From Gemmatimonadota bacterium (lineage in GTDB: Bacteria > Gemmatimonadota > Gemmatimonadetes > Gemmatimonadales > GWC2-71-9), in the NCBI GenBank assembly GCA_003221035.1, contig QHUB01000038.1:1-35196 (forward strand): a stretch of DNA of 35,196 nucleotides, read 5' to 3'. Below the pieces are notes generated by a model, which worked only from the letters and a program-made list of their open reading frames with translations, was not told the origin of the DNA and searched no databases. Positions 18,626-28,545 of this stretch are shown piece after piece. Each line of letters begins with the position of its first letter. The stretch's first letter is position 1. The translations under genes were made by a program, and so were the position numbers.

Positions 18626-19327
18626 CTACGAGCGCATCAGCACCTGCTGCGCGAGTGCCAAACCGGCCACGACACTCCCTATCGCCGCGCCCACGTGCAG
18701 GATCGTCGCCCAGCGCGCGCTGCGCTCTGCCGCGAACCGTATGAGCAGCGACAGCGTCAACGACACGCCCAACATCCCCATGACCGTTCCCGCGGCGAAG
18801 GCGGCGAAGTACGCGAGGCGCGACGTCGCGTCCGGCACGGCGGCGGCGAGCAGCGCGGCGATCGCGCCGCTCCCCGCCAGGCCATGCGCGATGCCGAAGC
18901 CGAGCGAACGCCGGGCGTCCGCGACCGTGTGGGCATGTGCGTGAGTGGAGGTGGTTGTGTGGCTATGAAGATGAAAGTGAGACGTCGCCGACGAGTGCGC
19001 GTGGAGATGCATGTGCCAGCCGCCGCGCACGTATCGCCAAATCACCACCGTTCCGAGGAGCACGAGCAGTGTGCCAACGACGAGCTCCGCGGCGGGCCAC
19101 AGCGCTGCCGGCAGCCGGATGCCGAGCACCACAATCACGCCGACCACGATGCCCACCGTGACCGAGTGGCCGACCCCCCAGACCAACCCCAGCCGTGCGG
19201 AAGCCCACAGCCGCGCTCCAGGCCGGGTGGCCAGCGTCGAGACGGCGGCCAGGTGGTCCGGCTCGAACGCATGCCGGAGTCCCAGAAGGAGGCCGATCCC
19301 CGCGACGCCAAAGAGGTTGGGGCTCAT
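18626..19327 (-). CDS. Nickel/cobalt transporter (NiCoT/HoxN-HupN-like)
   Basis: This 233-residue inner-membrane protein has about six hydrophobic segments. The signature RHAFEPDH in the first segments gives His19-X4-Asp24-His25, the HX4DH motif of nickel/cobalt permeases; GVGHSVTVG is a second conserved stretch. A cytoplasmic or periplasmic loop at about 104-133 is rich in His (HMHLHAH, HFHLHSH, HAHAHT) and probably binds metal. At 233 residues it is shorter than classical HoxN. The AT-rich leader contains TAGGCTAA (19341-19348 region), the same core as the mntR operator. Confidence 0.83.
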   Translation of the reverse strand: MSPNLFGVAGIGLLLGLRHAFEPDHLAAVSTLATRPGARLWASARLGLVWGVGHSVTVGIVVGVIVVLGIRLPAALWPAAELVVGTLLVLLGTVVIWRYVRGGWHMHLHAHSSATSHFHLHSHTTTSTHAHAHTVADARRSLGFGIAHGLAGSGAIAALLAAAVPDATSRLAYFAAFAAGTVMGMLGVSLTLSLLIRFAAERSARWATILHVGAAIGSVVAGLALAQQVLMRS

Positions 19328-19354
19328 GTGAGCACAGAATTTAGCCTATTCTTT
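19328..19354. promoter_or_regulatory. Divergent leader with DtxR-like core
   Basis: This AT-rich gap before the Ni/Co transporter (minus) and the sigma factor (plus) contains TTAGCCTA at 19341-19348, the complement of the mntR operator core. A single half site in a short gap is weak evidence. Confidence 0.3.
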
Positions 19355-19408
19355 ATGAAGGACCCCTTATTACAACCCTTTGCAGCACTTGGCTATCCAA
19401 CTTCGTGC

Positions 19409-19960
19409 ATGCCCAGACAGGTGCTCGAGGACACTCTGACTGCTGACTCCATAGCGGCTGACACGGCCCTCGCGGCAAGCGGGGACGCCAGTGCCTTCGA
19501 GCGGTTGTATCAGGCCCATGTTGCCCGGGTCCATACACTGGTGCGTCGCATGTTGAACGTGGACGAAGCCGACGACGTGACGCAGGACGTATTTATTCGG
19601 GCCTGGCAAAAGCTGTCGACGTTTCGCGGCGAGGCGGCGTTCGGAACGTGGCTGCACCGGCTGGCGGTGAATGTGGTGTTGGCGCGGCGCAAAAGCGTCG
19701 GGATCGAACGGGGCCGCTTCGTCACGGACGACGAGCCGCTCGCCGGTGCGACTTCGAAGCGCACGACGCCGGAGCTCTCGATGGATTTCGAGGAGGCGCT
19801 GGCAAGCCTCCCTGAAGGAGCAAGACAGGTGTTCGTGTTGCACGACGTGGAAGGGTATCGCCACGAAGAGATCGCGCGCATGCTCGGCGTCGTGCCGGGC
19901 ACGTCGAAATCGCAGCTGCATCATGCGCGGATGGCGCTGCGGAGGCACTTGGATCGATGA
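19409..19960 (+). CDS. ECF-type RNA polymerase sigma factor
   Basis: This 183-residue sigma-70 factor of the extracytoplasmic-function group has region 2 (AFERLYQAHVARVHTLVRRM... DDVTQDVFIRAWQKL, GTWLHRLAVNVVLARR) and region 4 (LPEGARQVFVLHDVEGYRHEEIARMLGV, SQLHHARMALRRHL). It would direct polymerase to envelope-stress promoters. The start is uncertain: ATG 19409 is chosen, while ATG 19355 in the same frame would add 18 residues; neither has a Shine-Dalgarno. The stop overlaps the anti-sigma start as ATGA, so both proteins are made in step. The downstream genes for two exported DUF4097 proteins are probable members of the same operon and perhaps its targets. Confidence 0.9.
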   Translation: MPRQVLEDTLTADSIAADTALAASGDASAFERLYQAHVARVHTLVRRMLNVDEADDVTQDVFIRAWQKLSTFRGEAAFGTWLHRLAVNVVLARRKSVGIERGRFVTDDEPLAGATSKRTTPELSMDFEEALASLPEGARQVFVLHDVEGYRHEEIARMLGVVPGTSKSQLHHARMALRRHLDR

Positions 19961-20622
19961 CTGATAAGTGGACGAACCGGCTTTCGGAGTATATCGACGG
20001 CGAGCTCGATAGCGCCGAGCAGGCTGCACTCGAGGAGCATCTCGCGACCTGCGGACATTGCTACGCGACCCTCGGCGACCTGCGCCAGGTCGTCGGCCGC
20101 GCGAAGCAGCTCGAGGATCGCAAACCCACGAACGATCTCTGGGGCGGAATTCGCGCCGGGATCGCGCGGAGCGAGCCTCGGCGCCATGCGCCGGTGGTGG
20201 CGAAGCGCCGCTTCAGCTTCTCCGTCCCGCAGCTTCTTGCCGCGAGCATTGCGTTGATGCTGATGACCGGCAGCGGGATGTGGGTCGCGCTCCACCAGCC
20301 TTCCCGTACGGTCACGCCTGACTTCATCGCGGGTCGGGAGACGCGACGGCCTCCAAACGTCAATGTGAACTGGACACGATCCACCGACGCGGCGATTGCC
20401 GACTTGCAGGTGGCGCTGGATCAGAACGAGAACCGGCTCGACACCGCGACGGTCCGGGTCGTGCGGCAGAATCTTGCGATCATCGATCGGGCGATCGCGG
20501 ATGCGCGTGCCGCCCTGGACAAAGATCCGGGCAACACATACTTGAGCCTCCACCTCGCTGATACAATGCGGCGCAAAGTGGAGCTATTGCGGCGGGTGAA
20601 CGACCTCGCCGCTCGATCCTAA
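19957..20622 (+). CDS. Zinc-finger anti-sigma factor, membrane-anchored
   Basis: This 221-residue protein starts with a zf-HC2 anti-sigma domain: LSEYIDGELD then HLATCGHC, giving His28, Cys32 and Cys35 as zinc ligands. One membrane segment (about 88-111, VPQLLAASIALMLMTGSGMWVAL) separates the cytoplasmic sigma-binding part from a periplasmic domain with heptad-like helices (ADLQVALDQNENRLDTATVRVV). It should hold the upstream sigma factor inactive until an envelope signal arrives. ATGA overlap with the sigma gene fixes the start. GGGAG at the 3' end already belongs to the next gene's ribosome site, showing that the operon continues. Confidence 0.88.
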   Translation: MTDKWTNRLSEYIDGELDSAEQAALEEHLATCGHCYATLGDLRQVVGRAKQLEDRKPTNDLWGGIRAGIARSEPRRHAPVVAKRRFSFSVPQLLAASIALMLMTGSGMWVALHQPSRTVTPDFIAGRETRRPPNVNVNWTRSTDAAIADLQVALDQNENRLDTATVRVVRQNLAIIDRAIADARAALDKDPGNTYLSLHLADTMRRKVELLRRVNDLAARS

Positions 20623-20635
20623 AGGGAGCACGAAC

Positions 20636-21745
20636 ATGGTTGCAACGCTGGCCGCCGCGATGCTGGTCGCTATGGCGGGAGCATCGCAGAGACAATCGGA
20701 TACGAGTTTCGCCGTGCCGGCCGGCGCAAGCCTCTCGGTCAACAATTTTGGCGGCGGGATCACGGTCCACGGCTGGTCCGAGAACCGCGTGAAGGTGCAC
20801 GCGGAGACGGGCCGGCGCGGGCGGGTGGACGTGTCGCTGGTGGGGAACACCGTAGTCGTGAAGACCGGCAGCCGCGAAGGCGCGCCGTCGGTGATCGATC
20901 TGGATGTCACGGTGCCCCAGTCGATGGGGCTGACCCTCGGAGGAACGTACGCGGACATCACGGTGGACGGCATGCAGGGCGCCATCAGCGCCGAAACCGT
21001 GAACGGCGAGGTCAACGTGCGCGGGGGCAAAGGGATCATCACGCTGCACTCGATTCAGGGAAGCGTGACACTTGCCGACGCCTCCGGCCGAATCGAGGTG
21101 AACTCCGTCAATGAAGATGTCGAGCTCTCGAACATCAATGGCGAGATCAAGGTCGAAACCACGAATGGCGAAGTGCGCCTGACCGGCATTCAGTCGTCCA
21201 GCGTGGACGCCGGGACGATCAACGGGGACGTGCTCTATGAGGGCACAGTCACCGACGGCGGCTCCTACAGCCTGGGCTCGCACAACGGTGATATCACGGT
21301 CTCCATTCCCGAGCGCGCGAACGTGACCATTACGGCGGCGACCGCAAACGGCGACATCGACTCGAGCTTCCCGCTTCCGATGACACAGGGGCCCGGCAAG
21401 CACCGCAAGACGTTCAAGATCGGCTCGGGGAGCGCGCGGATGGAGCTGGAGTCGTTCCAGGGCGACATCGAGCTGCGCCGCCCCGCGGAGCTGCGTGAGC
21501 AAATCGATCGCAGGAAGCACGAGCATGAGGAACGCGACAACGACAAGGATCGCGACTCCGATACCAGCTTCAGCTTTGATTGGAGCAGTGTGAGCACGTA
21601 CGCAACGCGGTACGCGGCGAGCTATGCCCCGAAGTATGCGGCGCAGTACGCGGCGCAGTACGCCCCGCGCTACGCGCGCCAATACGCGAAGATGTACAGT
21701 CGCCAATACAAGCAGGCGTACAAGAACAACCATGATGAGAAATGA
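20636..21745 (+). CDS. Exported DUF4097 beta-repeat protein with tyrosine-periodic tail
   Basis: This 369-residue protein has a hydrophobic leader (MVATLAAAMLVAMAGA). Many short beta-strand repeats of DUF4097 type follow, marked by NGD/NGE turns (TVNGEVNVRGGKG, NINGEIKVETTNGEV, SHNGDITVSIPE), forming a likely right-handed beta-helix to about residue 285. A charged linker rich in Asp/Lys/Arg/His (about 288-312) leads to a tail, residues 322-365, of eleven four-residue units beginning with Tyr, mostly YAXX. The tail is basic and carries one Tyr every fourth residue. AAGGGAG (20623-20629) gives a strong ribosome site. The gene follows the sigma/anti-sigma pair and precedes a paralogue lacking the tail. 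Role unknown; a cell-surface or periplasmic scaffold is an inference. Confidence 0.82.
   Translation: MVATLAAAMLVAMAGASQRQSDTSFAVPAGASLSVNNFGGGITVHGWSENRVKVHAETGRRGRVDVSLVGNTVVVKTGSREGAPSVIDLDVTVPQSMGLTLGGTYADITVDGMQGAISAETVNGEVNVRGGKGIITLHSIQGSVTLADASGRIEVNSVNEDVELSNINGEIKVETTNGEVRLTGIQSSSVDAGTINGDVLYEGTVTDGGSYSLGSHNGDITVSIPERANVTITAATANGDIDSSFPLPMTQGPGKHRKTFKIGSGSARMELESFQGDIELRRPAELREQIDRRKHEHEERDNDKDRDSDTSFSFDWSSVSTYATRYAASYAPKYAAQYAAQYAPRYARQYAKMYSRQYKQAYKNNHDEK
21599..21730 (+). repeat. Eleven 12-base units encoding Tyr-Ala-X-X
   Basis: The units begin TAC or TAT every 12 bases, encoding YATR, YAAS, YAPK, YAAQ (twice), YAPR, YARQ, YAKM, YSRQ, YKQA and YKNN. DNA identity between units is moderate, so the periodicity is kept at protein level. 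Confidence 0.9.
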
Positions 21746-21756
21746 CAGGAGGTCTC

Positions 21757-22539
21757 ATGCGTAGTCTCGCGGTTGCCGCGCTCCTTTGTCTGACCGGCGC
21801 GGCCGTGGCAGCAGGGCAGGATTTCAACTGGCATGGCCGGCTCGCCGCGGGCAAGCGGCTCGAGATCAAAGGCGTGAACGGCGACGTCCGCGCCGTCCTG
21901 GCGAGCGGCGCCGAGGCGGTCGTCAACGCGCGCAAGCACGGACACCGCTCCGATCCTGACGACGTGGAGATCAGGGTCGTGCCGTCGGACGATGGCATCA
22001 CCATCTGCGCCGTCTACCCGACGCCGTCGCGCGCTCACCACGACAACACCTGCGAGCCCGGCGACAACTGGCACTCGAACACCGAGAACAATGACGTCGT
22101 GGTCGATTTCGAGGTGCAAGTACCCGCCGGCGTGGTCTTCGACGGCAGGACCGTGAACGGCGAGATGTCGGCTGAGGGACTCAAGGCGGATGTGCGCGCG
22201 AGCACGGTGAATGGCAGCGTGAAGGTGACCACGACGGGGCTCGCCGAGGCGTCCACCGTGAACGGCTCGGTGTACGCGCAGATGGGACGCACGAACTGGA
22301 CCGACGAGATCGAGTTCAGCACCGTCAACGGGCGGATCACGCTGGTTCTTCCCGATGGCGAGCTCAATACCGAGATCCGGGCCAGCACGGTGAATGGAGA
22401 AATCGAGTCTGATTATCCGGTGACCGTCTCCGGCCGGTTCGGGCCGCGGAAGATGCGTGGCACGATCGGAACGGGCGGCCGCACGCTGAGTCTCAGTAGT
22501 GTGAACGGAGACATTCTACTGAAGAAGGGCACGCAATAG
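21757..22539 (+). CDS. Exported DUF4097 beta-repeat protein, second copy
   Basis: This 260-residue paralogue of the upstream protein has a clear signal peptide (MRSLAVAALLCLTGAAVAAGQ). Its body is built of short strands ending in a VNG turn (GVNGDV, TVNGEM, STVNGSV twice, STVNGRI, STVNGEI, SVNGDI), as expected for a DUF4097 beta-helix. Two Cys (about 89 and 101) could pair. ATG 21757 is preferred to one at 21742 that overlaps the previous stop codon, because of the signal peptide and the near-perfect AGGAGGT at 21747-21753. It is the last gene before a strong terminator. It lacks the tyrosine-periodic tail of its neighbour. Confidence 0.85.
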   Translation: MRSLAVAALLCLTGAAVAAGQDFNWHGRLAAGKRLEIKGVNGDVRAVLASGAEAVVNARKHGHRSDPDDVEIRVVPSDDGITICAVYPTPSRAHHDNTCEPGDNWHSNTENNDVVVDFEVQVPAGVVFDGRTVNGEMSAEGLKADVRASTVNGSVKVTTTGLAEASTVNGSVYAQMGRTNWTDEIEFSTVNGRITLVLPDGELNTEIRASTVNGEIESDYPVTVSGRFGPRKMRGTIGTGGRTLSLSSVNGDILLKKGTQ

Positions 22540-22593
22540 GTCCGGCCCGCAGTCTTTCGGTACCCAATCTCAGCAAGCGCTGAATCACCTTAG

Positions 22594-22619
22594 GCCCCTC
22601 TCTGTCGAGAGGGGCTTTT
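22594..22619 (+). terminator. Intrinsic terminator after the sigma/DUF4097 operon
   Basis: A 9-base-pair perfect stem (22594-22602 with 22607-22615, GCCCCTCTC/GAGAGGGGC) encloses the loop TGTC and is followed by TTTT. The descending arm contains AGGGG, which stands 6 bases before the GTG of the methyltransferase gene, so the hairpin could also hide that ribosome site in read-through RNA. Confidence 0.9.
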
Positions 22620-22620
22620 G

Positions 22621-25600
22621 GTGTTGCGGGACATCCTCGCCCGCACGACTCAGATCGAGCAGCTTGGCGCGCTGTTCGCGGCGCTCGGCTATGACGCCGT
22701 GTGGGAGCCGGTACCCGTCCGAGCCTGGCTCGGCGAGGTGGATGGCGTCGCCCGCGCCGCGCTCATCGCGCGCCACGGCGCGTTCCGGGTCTTTGCGCTG
22801 GAGGCAACAGTCCCGGAAGCCGCGGCACGGGCTGCCGCGCGCCGGCTCTCCGCCGGCGCCGAGCGCGGCCTGGCCTGCGCCCTCGGCGGTGCACCGCTGC
22901 GTCTGGTCTGCGCTGCCGGGCCGGTCGGCGTCCGAACGACGACCATCAACGTCACCGCGCCTGCGGGGGCCGCGCTCGCAACGCTCGAACGGCTCGTTCC
23001 AGCTGTCGGCGAAACGGCGCTCGCCTTGTCGCTGCGCATCGGCGAGGTGCTGGCGAGCGAAGGCGTCACACCGCGTTTCTTCCGCGCGTTTCGCGGCACG
23101 CTGGTGGACCTGACCGAGCAGCTTCGCACGCCGCGTTCCCGTCTCGACCGCCACACTCTGGCGTTGACCACACTGACTCGCGTGCTCTTCCTGTATTTCA
23201 TCCAGTCGAAAGGCTGGCTGGACGGCGACACGCGCTACGTCCCACACCTGCTCGACCGCGCCCTGTTCAGCCGGCGCCACTTCCATCGCTCGTTCCTGCA
23301 CGCGCTCTGCTTCGGTGCGTTGAATCGCCCGCCGGCACAGCGCAGTCGCGCGGTCCGGGCCTTGGGGAGAATTCCGTTCCTGAACGGCGGCCTGTTCGAG
23401 CCTACCGCGCTGGAACGCCTGCACCGTCCCGCGGAGTGGTCGAACGCCGCCTGGCGCGATGCCTTCGATCGCTTGTTCGAGCGCTTTCACTTTTCGGTGA
23501 GCGAACACGACGCCGGTGAATTCGTGGCGCCGGACATGCTGGGACGCGTGTTCGAAGGGGTGATGGACCCCGACGAGCGTCGGACCAGCGGCAGCTACTA
23601 CACCCCGGCCTCGCTCGTGCGCGAAATGGTGCGCGCGGGGCTCGAGGCGGCGCTCACCCATCGCTTTGGCATCTTGCCCGGCGCGGCGGCGCGCTGGGTG
23701 CACGAGCGCCGCGCACCAACACCCGCACCCAGTCTCAGAGGACTGACCGTCCTCGACCCCGCCGCCGGCTCGGGTGCCTTTCTCCTCGGCGCGCTCGACG
23801 AGCTGGTGGCACTCCGCTGCGCCGCCGGCGACGGCCCCGCCCTCGTCGTGAAACGCGATGTGCTCGCGCATTCGCTGTTTGGTGTGGACCTGACGCCCAC
23901 CGCCGTGCGCCTCACCGAGCTGCGACTGTGGCTCTCTCTCGTGGCCGACCAAAACGAGTCCGACGTGAATCGCGTGGCGCCGTTGCCCAATCTCGACGGG
24001 CATGTCCTGCAAGGCGATGCGCTCCTCGATCCGGTGATGCTCGCCGCCTCGATGGGTGGGCGCGCATTCCGGGCCGGCGCCGCCGACGTCCGCCGCCTGA
24101 CAGCGGCACGTCACAAGCATTTTCTGCTCGCCAGCCCCGAAAAACGGGCGGCGCAAGCCGAGCTGGACCGTGCGGAAGCAACGCTCGCGCGCCGGCTGCT
24201 CGATGAGGCTCTCGCCGCGCTCGAAGCGGCCATCGCGGAGCTGCTCGGCGCCGCCCGGAACCGCGACCTGTTCGGCCGGCGGCGCGCGCTGGACTCCGAG
24301 CAACGGCAACGGCTCCAGCGATTGCATCAGAGCTGGCGTGACTTGCGCACTGCACACCGCAAGCTGCGTCACGAGAAGGCCGTTCCTTTTTTCTCTTTCG
24401 AATCGCAGTTCGCCGACGTGATGCATCAGGGCGGGTTCGATCTGGTGATCGGGAATCCCCCGTGGGTGCGCGCCGAGCGGTTGCCTGCGCGTGTGCGCGA
24501 AGCGCTGGCGACGCGCTACTCGTGCTGGCGATCACCCGGCACCCGCGGTGGGGGCGGGGGGCGGGGGGGCTTCGCACATAAGCCCGATCTCGCGGTCGCG
24601 TTCACCGAAAGAGCGCTCGAGCTCGCGCGTCCGGCGGGCGTGGTAGCGCTGCTCGTTCCCGCCAAGCTCGCCACGAGCGGCTATGCGGAGCCGCTTCGAC
24701 GGCACTTGAGTGCCACGCGAATCGAGCGCGTCGCCCCCGTGCCTGAGCGCGTGTCCCATGCGTTCGGTGCCGCCGTGTACCCCATGGCGTTGGTGGTCGC
24801 GCGCGCCGATCCGGCGGGCACCGAAATCACCGCGACGGCCCTCGGCGCTAAACCGTCGGTGCCCGGCGTGCCTCAACGTCAATTGCAGCGTGATGGCGAG
24901 GGACCCTGGATCCTCACGCCTCAAGCCGAACGCGTCCGCAGCAGGCTGCTTGCGGACTTCCCCACCGTGGGCGATCGCTGGACCCCGCAGCTGGGTGTGA
25001 AGACCGGCGCGGACGATCTCTTTGTGTTGGCGCAAGAGTGTTCCGGCACGCGGCCCGCGATTCGTGGGCGCGACATTGCTGCCTTCCACTGCCGGCCGCG
25101 CCGGTACGTGCTGTGGACGCACGGCGCCGATGGCCTGCCGCTCGCGCGCTTGCCGCGGGATCTCACGGAGCGACTGGCGCGGCATGAGGCACGGTTACGC
25201 CGCCGCGCCGACTACAGATCTGGCCCGCCCTGGCAATTATTTCGCACCGCACTGGGATTCGCGGCCCATCGGGTTGTCTGGCCGGACCTCGCGCGCAGGC
25301 TCGCCGCGGCCGTGCCGGCGCCGCAGCTGGTACCACTTAACACGGTCTACGGCATTGCGACGCGTGATGCCGAAGACGCGGCATCCTTGGCCGCCTTGTT
25401 CAACTCCCGGTGGCTCACGGCGCTCGCCCGTCTCGTCGCGGATCCGGCTCGAGGCGGGTTCCGCCGTTTCAACGCGCGCGTCGTCGCAGGTCTCCCGATC
25501 CCGCCGCTCGGGTCGCCGGTCTGGGCCGAGTTGGCCCGTCGCGGCGCCGCCCGCGAGCCGGCCGACGACCTCGTCGCCGATGCCTTCAACCTCGATGATA

Positions 25601-25635
25601 CCGACCGTCGCGCGCTGGCCGCGGATCCTGTCTGA
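22621..25635 (+). CDS. Large adenine-specific DNA methyltransferase (Eco57I/PglX-like)
   Basis: This roughly 1004-residue protein is of the Eco57I / type IIG / BREX PglX kind. A conserved N-terminal half ([58 protein letters not shown], the last at about 325-329) leads to SAM motif [10 protein letters not shown] (Asp379) and catalytic motif IV NPPW (612-615), as in N6-adenine enzymes. [20 protein letters not shown] and a C-terminal specificity-like domain follow. No PD-(D/E)XK, HNH or PLD nuclease motif was seen, so it probably only modifies DNA. GTG 22621 is placed 6 bases after AGGGG; TTG 22618 or 22624 are alternatives. A tract of G5-C-G6-C-G7 (24550-24569) lies just after motif IV. The next gene, a SNF2 helicase, overlaps its 3' end. 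Confidence 0.88.
24550..24569. repeat. G5-C-G6-C-G7 tract in the methyltransferase gene
   Basis: Three G runs of five, six and seven bases, split by single C, encode a Gly-rich loop (GGGGGRGG) after the NPPW motif. Slippage in the G7 run would truncate the enzyme. Confidence 0.9.
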
Positions 25636-27886
25636 GGATCTCGTTCCAGTCGCGGAGCCGCTCGCCGCCCTCCTTCAGCCGGGCGGCGAGGCGTCCGCAC
25701 GGCAGGTTGTAGCAACTGCGGCACGTGCGCTGCTCGACGTTGAACCGGCGGGACCAGGTCGGTCGTGGCCGGCCTGGCTCGCCCCACACCAGATACCGGC
25801 CGCCGAGCGATTGACGACGATCATCGCGCGATATGGCGGCGCGTTGCTTGCGGACGAGGTGGGGCTTGGCAAATCCTACGTCGCGCTCGCAATCGCACTC
25901 GCGACCCAAGAAACGTTCACGCTCATTGTTCCGGCCGTGCTCGTTCAGCAGTGGCGCGCGTTGTTGGATCGATTCGGCGTGCCGGAGACGCCCATCATCA
26001 CGCACGAGTCTCTGAGTGTGCAGAGTCGCCCGTTGCCGACCTTTGCCGCCCCATGCCGCCTTGTTGTCGTCGACGAGGCGCACCGCTTCCGTAATCCTGA
26101 AACCAATCGGTATCGAGCACTCGCCGGACTGGTCGTCGGCAGCCGCGTGCTGCTGGTAACCGCGACGCCGATCCACAACTCCGCTGGCGACCTGCTCCAT
26201 CTGCTGCGTCTGTTCCTGCGCGATCATGCCCTCGCGGCACTCGGAGTCCCATCGCTGCGAAACGCCGCTCGGCGCGAAGCCGACCGGTCGCTGGCGCACG
26301 CTGCGGTCGCGCGCGTGGTCGTCGCTCGCTCACGCGAGCGGGTGCGGCGTGGCTACGACGGCGGTCCCGTGAGCATGGTGTTCCCGCGCGCCACCACCGA
26401 AGCCATCCGGGCAGGGCCCGCGTCCGACTCGTTGCTTGCCGAATTGACCGCAGGAGTGAGCGCGTTACGCGGTGGCGGGACAGCCGCGCCTCTCCTGCGT
26501 CTGATGCTGCTGCGGCGCCTGGGATCGAGCATCGGCGCCTTCCGTGCCGCCCTCACTCGGCATGACGCCTACCTCGATCTCGCGATGCGCGCCGCAGACG
26601 AGGGCCGCGCGCTCTCGCCGCGCGAGTTCCAGCGCTGCTTTCCGCGTGCCGGGGAATCGGATATCCAGCTGGTCCTGTTCCCGGTGCTACTCGATCAGAC
26701 CGACAACATCGCCGCATTCGCGGATGATCACCGCGTGCTCGCGCGCCTGCGTGAGCTCGTGGCGCATCCCCCGGCAACCGACCCGAAGGCCGATGCTTTA
26801 CAAGAGCTCCTCACCAGGAAGGCCGTCAAGACGATCGTCTTCACCGACGCGCAGCCGACCGCGCGCTATTTGCTCCAACGGCTCCGCCACGCCCGAGTCG
26901 CGGCGGTGTTTGGACATGCTGGTCGGTTCGCTACGGGAACTGTCTCGCGGCACGAAGTCCTGCGCACGTTCGCGCCCCAGGCTCAGGGCGGATCCCGGCC
27001 GGTCGCGGCGCTCGAGACGGATGTCCTCATCGCCACCGATCTGTTGAGCGAGGGCCTCAATCTCCAGGATGCCGAGCGGGTCGTGCATTACGACCTGCCG
27101 TGGAGTCCCGCTCGCCTCGCACAGCGCGTCGGGCGTATCGACCGGCTGGGCTCGCCGCATCGCACGATCAGCACAGTGACATTCCTGCCGCCGCCGGCGC
27201 TTGCCCGGGCGCTCGAGCTCGAGGAGCGACTCGCGCGAAAGGTCAGTGCGCAGCAGGTCGCCGGCACCGGTGGCCGTCTCGACTGGTGTGATCAGCTCGC
27301 CGCGCTGGCGACTGCTTGCGAAGCACCCAACGGCTCGTGCGCCGCTGTCGAGGGCGAGCCACCGAGTACGGCACTGATCGTCCGGATCGCCGGACTCGTG
27401 GACGCGATTGTGGTTGAGGGACAGACCGCCCGGACCAACCCCGCTGCCGCGACGCGTATTCTCGCCGGCGCGGCCTCAAGAAATCCGGTTGCCGTCGATC
27501 GACAGCAACTCCAAAGTGCGATCGACGCGGCAGCGCCGTTGATCCGCTCACGCCTCGCGGCGGTGCAGGAAGCCCGCTGGCGCGCGGGCGACCGCGATCG
27601 TTTCGCGCGCCGGCTCATTCCGTGGGTGCTGTCGGCGGCCCGACGCGCGGCGCGCCGGGGTGATGGAGAGCAGCTGAGCTCGCTCGATACGCTGGTCTCC
27701 CGGCTTGCCCTTGGCATGACCGCCGGGGAGGAGCTCAGGCTGGAAGACCTGCTCTCGCGACCTGAGCCGCTGCTCGTGCAGGACCTGCTCGGGTGGCACC
27801 AGGGACTGCCGCCCGTGGATTCTCAAGAGTCGTCCGTGAGCGTCGATCTCGTCGCCGCAGTCAGCGTCGGCTCACCATCGCAGTAG
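25595..27886 (+). CDS. SNF2-family helicase/translocase partner of the methyltransferase
   Basis: This roughly 763-residue ATPase is of the SNF2/RapA/DrmD kind. Walker A is ADEVGLGKS (Lys93), motif II is DEAH (160-163, [11 protein letters not shown]), motif III is VTATPIHN, and the C-terminal helicase lobe has [20 protein letters not shown] (about 478-497) and motif [10 protein letters not shown] (510-517). The final 230 residues are helical and show no nuclease motif. It should move along duplex DNA using ATP. The start is uncertain because no Shine-Dalgarno is visible: ATG 25595 (41-base overlap with the methyltransferase gene) is chosen, ATG 25580 is possible. The overlap implies coupled translation. 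Methylase plus SNF2 translocase resembles drmMI-drmD of DISARM, but drmA, drmB and drmC are absent nearby. Confidence 0.86.
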
Positions 27887-27894
27887 ATTCCGGT

Positions 27895-28545
27895 GTGGCG
27901 CTCGACACCTTCCTCTTCGATCTCGACGGCACGATCATCGATTCGATCGAGCTGATCCTGCGCTCCTACCGCCACACCATGGAGCTGCACCGCTGCAACG
28001 AGCCGGCCCCGCCCGACGACCTGTGGATCAAAGGCCTGGGGACGCCGCTCTGGACGCAGTTCGGCCAGATCACCGACGACAAAGCGGAGATCGAAGCGAT
28101 GGTGCAGACCTATCGCACGTACAACCTCACCCATCACGACGCCCTGGTGAAACCGTACGAAGGCGTCGTGGATGAGATCCGGCGCATCAAGCGGGCCGGC
28201 AAGCGACTCGGCGTCGTGACCAGCAAGCTGCGCGACGGGGCGATGCGGGGCATTCGCATCTCCGGGCTCGACGAAGTGTTCGACATCATCGTCGGCTGCG
28301 ATGACGTCAAGAACTTCAAGCCGCATCCGGAGCCCGTGCTCAAAGCGGTGGACGAATTGGGAGTCGCAAAAACAGGCACCGTCTTTATCGGCGACTCGCG
28401 TCACGACATGGAGTGTGGCCGAGCTGCCGGCGTGAAAACGGCCGCTGTGCTGTGGGGACCGTTTGATCGCGAACACCTGCAGGATCTGTCGCCCGACTAC
28501 TGGCTGGAGAAACCCGAGGACCTGAGGCAGCTTTACGAGCCATGA
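27895..28545 (+). CDS. HAD-superfamily phosphatase (phosphoglycolate/PpaX-like)
   Basis: This 216-residue hydrolase shows all four HAD motifs: FLFDLDGTIIDS (nucleophile Asp), VVTSKLRDG, the Lys of NFKPHPEPVLKA, and VFIGDSRHDMECGRAAG (acidic pair). The helical cap between motifs I and II has the size of subclass I caps, as in phosphoglycolate phosphatase and pyrophosphatase PpaX; the substrate is not determined. GTG 27895 starts 8 bases after the helicase stop, with no Shine-Dalgarno; TAGATT at 27884-27889 lies 5 bases before it. The stop overlaps the next start as ATGA, linking it to the aminotransferase. Confidence 0.86.
   Translation: MALDTFLFDLDGTIIDSIELILRSYRHTMELHRCNEPAPPDDLWIKGLGTPLWTQFGQITDDKAEIEAMVQTYRTYNLTHHDALVKPYEGVVDEIRRIKRAGKRLGVVTSKLRDGAMRGIRISGLDEVFDIIVGCDDVKNFKPHPEPVLKAVDELGVAKTGTVFIGDSRHDMECGRAAGVKTAAVLWGPFDREHLQDLSPDYWLEKPEDLRQLYEP

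Follow-up and report, generated by a model that had tools for sequence, protein, structure and literature searches.

A DNA methyltransferase gene (MT) and an SNF2-type helicase gene (HEL) overlap in the DNA analysed here, a 35,196-nucleotide stretch of a Gemmatimonadota draft genome (the window), and we interpret them as a domesticated writer of a fixed N6-methyladenine (m6A) mark, MT, whose access to DNA or movement on it is aided by the motor HEL. We give this reading, which is drawn from sequence comparison, a probability of about 0.5. It is the simplest reading that covers the retention of the pair, its synteny, the constant target domain, the absence of a nuclease and translational coupling. 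More tentatively, we propose that an immune-type pair became, by domestication, an epigenetic system of the whole order, whose fixed m6A mark may need the SNF2 motor or be steered by it.

The source genome comprises 3.36 Mb and is 98.7% complete, and all close homologues of the pair lie in Gemmatimonadota records. The distribution of the genes is described for 295 genomes of the phylum, each at least 90% complete, and for 160 genomes of the order Gemmatimonadales (50 from the family of the source genome, termed its own family, and 110 from the rest of the order); conservation is described for 32 MT and 41 HEL orthologues. A scan of GTDB contigs finds about 50 pair-bearing loci, nearly all in Gemmatimonadota, with three in Acidobacteria too. 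The features of the locus are outlined in table 1.

Table 1. Features of the MT–HEL locus (positions in the window).
Feature	Position	Strand	Remarks
Candidate MT promoter, TCGGTACC plus -10-like CACCTT	22557-22591	+	from orthologue comparison only
Hairpin abutting MT start	22592-22617	+	3' arm GAGGGG, Shine-Dalgarno-like; covariation support weak
MT, gamma-type N6-adenine DNA methyltransferase	22618-25635	+	1005 aa counted from TTG 22618
MT N-terminal alpha/beta domain	22618-23007	+	residues 1-130; structure model and conservation
MT SAM-binding motif	23755-23784	+	residues 380-389; in 32/32 orthologues
MT catalytic motif IV NPPW	24454-24465	+	residues 613-616; invariant in 32 orthologues
MT target-recognition domain, TaqI_C-like	24973-25512	+	residues 786-965; conservation equals that of the catalytic domain
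MT/HEL overlap, out of frame	25595-25635	+	41 nt
HEL, SNF2/RapA-type helicase or translocase	25595-27886	+	763 aa; Pfam SNF2 and Helicase_C
HEL Walker A DEVGLGKS	25853-25876	+	G90, G92 and K93 invariant in 41 orthologues
HEL Walker B DEAH	26072-26083	+	D160, E161 and H163 invariant
HEL helicase motif	27122-27151	+	orthologue conservation
HEL C-terminal alpha+beta domain	27272-27883	+	four strands, long helices, fifth strand (model)
HAD-family phosphatase	27893-28545	+	directly downstream of HEL; synteny anchor

MT is retained throughout the order. It is present in 144 of the 160 Gemmatimonadales genomes (45/50 in the own family, 99/110 elsewhere in the order) and in 12/135 genomes of the phylum outside the order, and HEL gives the same picture across the phylum; type I HsdR, by comparison, is found in 37/151 Gemmatimonadales genomes. 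An earlier interpretation made from the letters alone (the sequence-only reading) left it to homologues to show whether the two genes travel together without a third, and they do: among the 139 genomes in which both are listed, 128 have HEL immediately after MT in the same orientation, most of the others being split over contigs. HEL also follows MT in at least six further inspected genomes. This adjacency and co-orientation are far beyond chance. Beyond the phylum, relatives of MT occur in about 14 of the 111 genomes of an Acidobacteria class searched with MT. In the three Acidobacteria loci that were read HEL is again behind MT and the remaining neighbours are housekeeping genes; among mechanically called ORFs, Gemmatimonadota and Acidobacteria pair loci have no family in common beyond the clusters at the MT and HEL positions.

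Synteny extends well past the pair. Own-family loci match the window gene for gene, both upstream (sigma-type ORF, zf-HC2 and two DUF4097 genes) and downstream (HAD phosphatase, aminotransferase, PHO4 and amino-acid permease), while other families keep parts of the order (HAD, PHO4, glycosyltransferase and radical SAM). The DUF4097, HAD, aminotransferase and PHO4 neighbours recur in different genera. The genes after the pair had been described as housekeeping-type, which fits the HAD, aminotransferase and PHO4 genes and applies equally to the syntenic anti-sigma and DUF4097 genes upstream. In the window the latter belong to a cluster at 18695-22539, conserved in the own family, of an ECF-like sigma factor, a zf-HC2 anti-sigma factor and two DUF4097 'toastrack' genes. 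The HAD phosphatase is possibly co-transcribed with the pair and is not thought to be part of the system.

Pairwise distances of MT and HEL are correlated at 0.85, compared with 0.62-0.85 for the pair against its neighbours and 0.56-0.91 for the neighbours among themselves, and dN/dS is 0.11-0.27. Judged by these correlations and ratios, MT and HEL are inherited with the chromosome and under purifying selection, although their rate of evolution exceeds that of the HAD, aminotransferase and PHO4 neighbours about 1.3-1.9 times. An origin in mobile elements was set aside, as the relatives in viral contigs and plasmids are all remote (34% identity or less). About 10% of Gemmatimonadales lack the pair, often those with small genomes, and it is therefore not essential; since six of the 16 that lack MT are small, at 1.8-2.4 Mb, its loss seems to accompany genome reduction. 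In one genome (G013) the contig ends beside the locus at the site of loss.

MT has Pfam matches to Eco57I (PF07669, 2.7e-22) and N6_Mtase. Its structure model (pLDDT 90) is closest to CamA (E 1e-20), followed by BrxX, BseCI and MmeI. The target-recognition part is the fastest-changing part of restriction and BREX methylases. In the own family the target domain of MT has an identity of 0.70, against 0.70 and 0.73 for the catalytic blocks, and in a second family 0.53 against 0.55 and 0.63; full blocks are 0.54-0.80 identical, without a trough such as that of PglX. The control here is E. coli BREX PglX, one system in one species. The query allele is matched in 351 genomes, with at least 80% of the query covered in only four, and among five alleles the blocks outside 501-950 average 0.84-1.00 identity while blocks 551-950 fall to 0.19-0.44. 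With a conserved protein region taken as a proxy for conserved DNA specificity, the target-recognition region of MT is apparently constant across genera. Of all the findings, this constancy speaks most strongly against an arms-race role.

Irregular forms of MT were also seen. Swaps of the target domain were considered for some genomes of the second family (f2), in which the profile match ended early, and were rejected: the same domain lies behind low-complexity insertions or in a separate ORF. In three related genomes (G023, G102 and G105) MT is split at one common point into a catalytic ORF of about 800 aa and an overlapping target-recognition ORF, an arrangement like HsdM plus HsdS, with HEL after them. 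An insertion of about 11.6 kb at locus L164 (G022:C3:26000-44500) interrupts MT towards its C-terminus, close to profile position 944, and cuts it off from its own last residues and from HEL.

The sequence-only reading saw no nuclease motif in either protein, and conservation agrees: no conserved nuclease residues are found across the MT and HEL orthologues, and residues 1-140 of MT contain no invariant D or K even within the own-family set. Both protein ends had been named as places where a nuclease fold might hide. Residues 1-130 of MT follow the order helix-strand-strand-strand-helix-strand, which is compatible with a PD-(D/E)XK core by inspection of the DSSP string of the model; a hidden nuclease there or in the HEL C-terminus was nevertheless rejected, as conservation gives no catalytic set. 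The modelled MT N-terminus is probably a dead nuclease-like domain.

Partner genes were sought at the locus and in the genome. No drmA/B, pglZ, yprA or DUF499 partner was found beside the pair, and the neighbours said to be capable of making it a known type, drmA/B or pglZ, are absent from the annotated Gemmatimonadales flanks. There is no drmC-type PLD gene among the window genes at 2270-34087 or in sampled flanks, and no restriction nuclease among annotated flanks. The source genome has no match to DUF1998/MZB (PF09369), for which control genomes are positive, and none to DUF499. Its sole PglZ-domain (PF08665) protein, encoded on another contig, is a PorX-like response regulator and was rejected as a BREX partner on that ground. 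Elsewhere, locus L088 (G067:C1) encodes an SNF2 helicase of 1080 aa with an N-terminal PLD nuclease domain; an MT-like methylase was not found in the 18 kb examined around it. At L087, which lies in a genome (G161) from another family of the class, MT and HEL are both longer (1213 and 1032 aa) and adjoin a divergent HerA/mad8-like gene, and this locus is perhaps a more complete ancestral system.

The main alternative is a vertically kept, nuclease-free innate immunity, in effect a stripped-down ARMADA or DISARM, in which MT would mark self DNA and HEL would translocate on unmarked invader DNA, blocking its replication or exposing it to general host nucleases. It holds this place because the characterised relatives of the gene combination known to us (DISARM class 1, ARMADA, BREX and BR/Hma) are all defence systems. 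We consider it possible. The closest families of MT and HEL are defence proteins, homologues with 26-30% identity (L073 and L057) lie in loci with a YprA/DUF1998 helicase, an SNF2 helicase and a methyltransferase, and both genes change faster than their HAD, aminotransferase and PHO4 neighbours. However, the target-recognition region is constant across genera, retention at a fixed locus is about 90% against about 25% for a real defence gene (HsdR), and the pair has no effector or YprA partner, while ARMADA type II needs all four of its genes (PMC12458937). A fixed locus in about nine of ten genomes, no cutting partner and a constant recognition part make the pair resemble a resident DNA-marking system more than a mobile defence island. 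The earlier proposal of a minimal, nuclease-free defence or epigenetic module thus stands as to a nuclease-free, stand-alone pair, for which the epigenetic option fits best, and is not supported as to a defence island, since the locus is core and vertically inherited. Its other option, reliance on a distant nuclease, finds no support in a core locus with a constant target region and a genome without a DUF1998 or DUF499 partner.

HEL has intact motifs (GLGKS, DEAH, TATP, EGLNLQ and one more listed in table 1) and a structure model (pLDDT 87) that matches RapA and SNF2 remodelers. The C-terminal domain of RapA and BrxHII, as described, matches the C-terminal arrangement of HEL (PMC12839542). Charged residues in this part of HEL show little conservation outside the own family. 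A second alternative would make the pair a DNA repair or transcription-coupled module, with HEL acting as a RapA-like recycler or stripper of RNA polymerase and the methylase marking strands for repair. Profile and fold comparisons with the PDB both rank RapA first for HEL, and the C-terminal domain is RapA/BrxHII-like, but such similarity is common to BrxHII/DrmD-type helicases, the shorter Acidobacteria helicases do without this domain, and no repair genes are linked to the pair in annotated neighbourhoods; we regard this alternative as improbable. A decaying DISARM/ARMADA remnant is strongly disfavoured and very improbable: the engine genes are absent and HEL is frame-broken at three own-family loci (L006, L018 and G134:C52, by decay or assembly error, with MT intact there), but motifs are intact in 32 MT and 41 HEL orthologues, dN/dS is 0.11-0.27 and about 90% of the order retains the pair.

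An overlap of about 41 bases between an Eco57I/PglX-like methylase and an SNF2 helicase had been noticed from the letters; both ORFs are in place and the figure is exact. Of 30 orthologous loci, 29 show such an overlap, with lengths from 7 to 167 nt, and translational coupling of the two genes is likely. At the other end of MT, TTG 22618 is followed by GTG 22621, and the latter is the likelier start because two orthologues (L005 and L007) have the GTG and no TTG. The hairpin before it (-34 kcal/mol, z -5.5) had been taken for a strong terminator. It is real but abuts the start codon; most own-family orthologues retain the CCCCTC...GAGGGG hairpin, which ends in CCC-GTG with no T tract. The terminator reading was rejected on the lack of a conserved T tract, and the structure is probably a 5'-UTR hairpin whose GAGGGG is a plausible Shine-Dalgarno sequence for GTG 22621. 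An Rfam search gave no match. The TCGGTACC element (22557-22564), about -57 from the MT start, recurs in most orthologues of the own family, where its distance from the -10-like hexamer barely varies. The conserved TCGGTACC, CACCTT and GAGGGG at the start make it probable that MT is transcribed from a promoter of its own and that its hairpin can mask the ribosome site. A GGTACC upstream of MT was set aside as a methylation or promoter signal, its counts being uninformative.

Returning to the domesticated m6A writer, an ancestor of the Gemmatimonadales would have taken MT and HEL from an ARMADA/DISARM-type pool of parts and kept them in the core genome. MT would place N6-methyladenine at a single, unchanging asymmetric site in DNA. 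HEL, translated from the overlapping message that it shares with MT, would be an ATP-driven translocase or remodeler of double-stranded DNA and a probable partner of MT, stripping off bound proteins or carrying MT along DNA so that sites become methylated. The genome would then carry a stable mark throughout, with a use in regulation or DNA housekeeping and a role resembling that of CamA, an orphan core methylase. Against this reading count the defence roles of the characterised close relatives, the faster evolution of both genes, the breaks in HEL in a few genomes and the absence of the pair from about 10% of the order. Enzymatic activity, a physical MT–HEL complex, remodeler-assisted methylation and the cellular role are what we infer; a literature search found no methylome for the phylum Gemmatimonadota. 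In eukaryotes DDM1/LSH provides remodeler-assisted DNA methylation, and MT–HEL, if the reading is true, would be its bacterial counterpart. To our knowledge, pairs of a methylase and an SNF2 helicase were previously known only within larger anti-phage systems, where it is difficult to tell apart what each protein does. The Gemmatimonadales pair is free-standing, intact and present in about 90% of the order, with a recognition region that appears fixed, and it offers a natural minimal system both for probing the methylase-helicase core shared by DISARM, ARMADA and BREX by itself and for asking whether immune parts can turn into a genome-wide regulator.

Among known systems, the pair is, on profile scores and gene content, not DISARM, BREX or ARMADA; membership in these and in DUF499/Hma systems was rejected by missing partner families and profile cut-offs. 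The sequence-only reading had said as much of DISARM and BREX while seeing kinship with them, and the scores below cut-off to DrmMI/PglX and DrmD/DpdE/BrxHII bear it out. For DISARM class 1, the suggested PADLOC check returns DrmMI as the best match of MT (101 bits; PDLC02643, 101.5 bits, partial) and DpdE (120 bits) and DrmD (108 bits) as those of HEL. However, HEL scores 121.7 bits against NF038317 (DrmD), whose cut-off is 610, the source genome lacks the DUF1998 protein needed for DrmB, and annotated Gemmatimonadales flanks hold no defence gene. Likeness to BREX lies in the PglX/BrxX-like fold of MT and in the RapA-like C-terminal domain of HEL, as in BrxHII (PMC12839542), but MT reaches only 30-43 bits against PglX cut-offs of 400-900 and the locus has no PglZ phosphatase. 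The BREX-related Hma systems (PMC12839542) differ in their DUF499 ATPase, which the source genome lacks, and neither a Tudor nor an inactive REase domain is apparent at the N-terminus of HEL. With type IIL/IIG enzymes (MmeI, BpuSI and the Type IIG PADLOC models) MT shares MmeI-like helical, methylase and recognition domains; it differs in an N-terminal domain without conserved nuclease residues and in the separate helicase.

The layout of ARMADA type I has a YprA-like helicase, a BrxHII/RapA-like helicase and a PglX-like methylase (PMC12458937). The last two adjoin each other in our pair as well, although the YprA-like helicase is missing, the order is MT-HEL rather than YprA-HEL-MT, and HEL has about 760 aa instead of about 950. 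Because the relatives at L073 and L057 sit behind a YprA/DUF1998 helicase in the type I layout, the window pair is, by this comparison of loci, the methylase-helicase half of an ARMADA-like system, without the YprA engine and with the gene order reversed. For CamA, the best structural match of MT, we know of no helicase partner. CamA is an orphan core-genome N6-adenine methylase that every sequenced C. difficile genome carries (PMC8187626); it differs in being about half the length of MT and specific to one species. What MT–HEL has in common with orphan core-genome methylases of the CamA/CcrM kind is retention across a whole lineage, free of a linked restriction nuclease.
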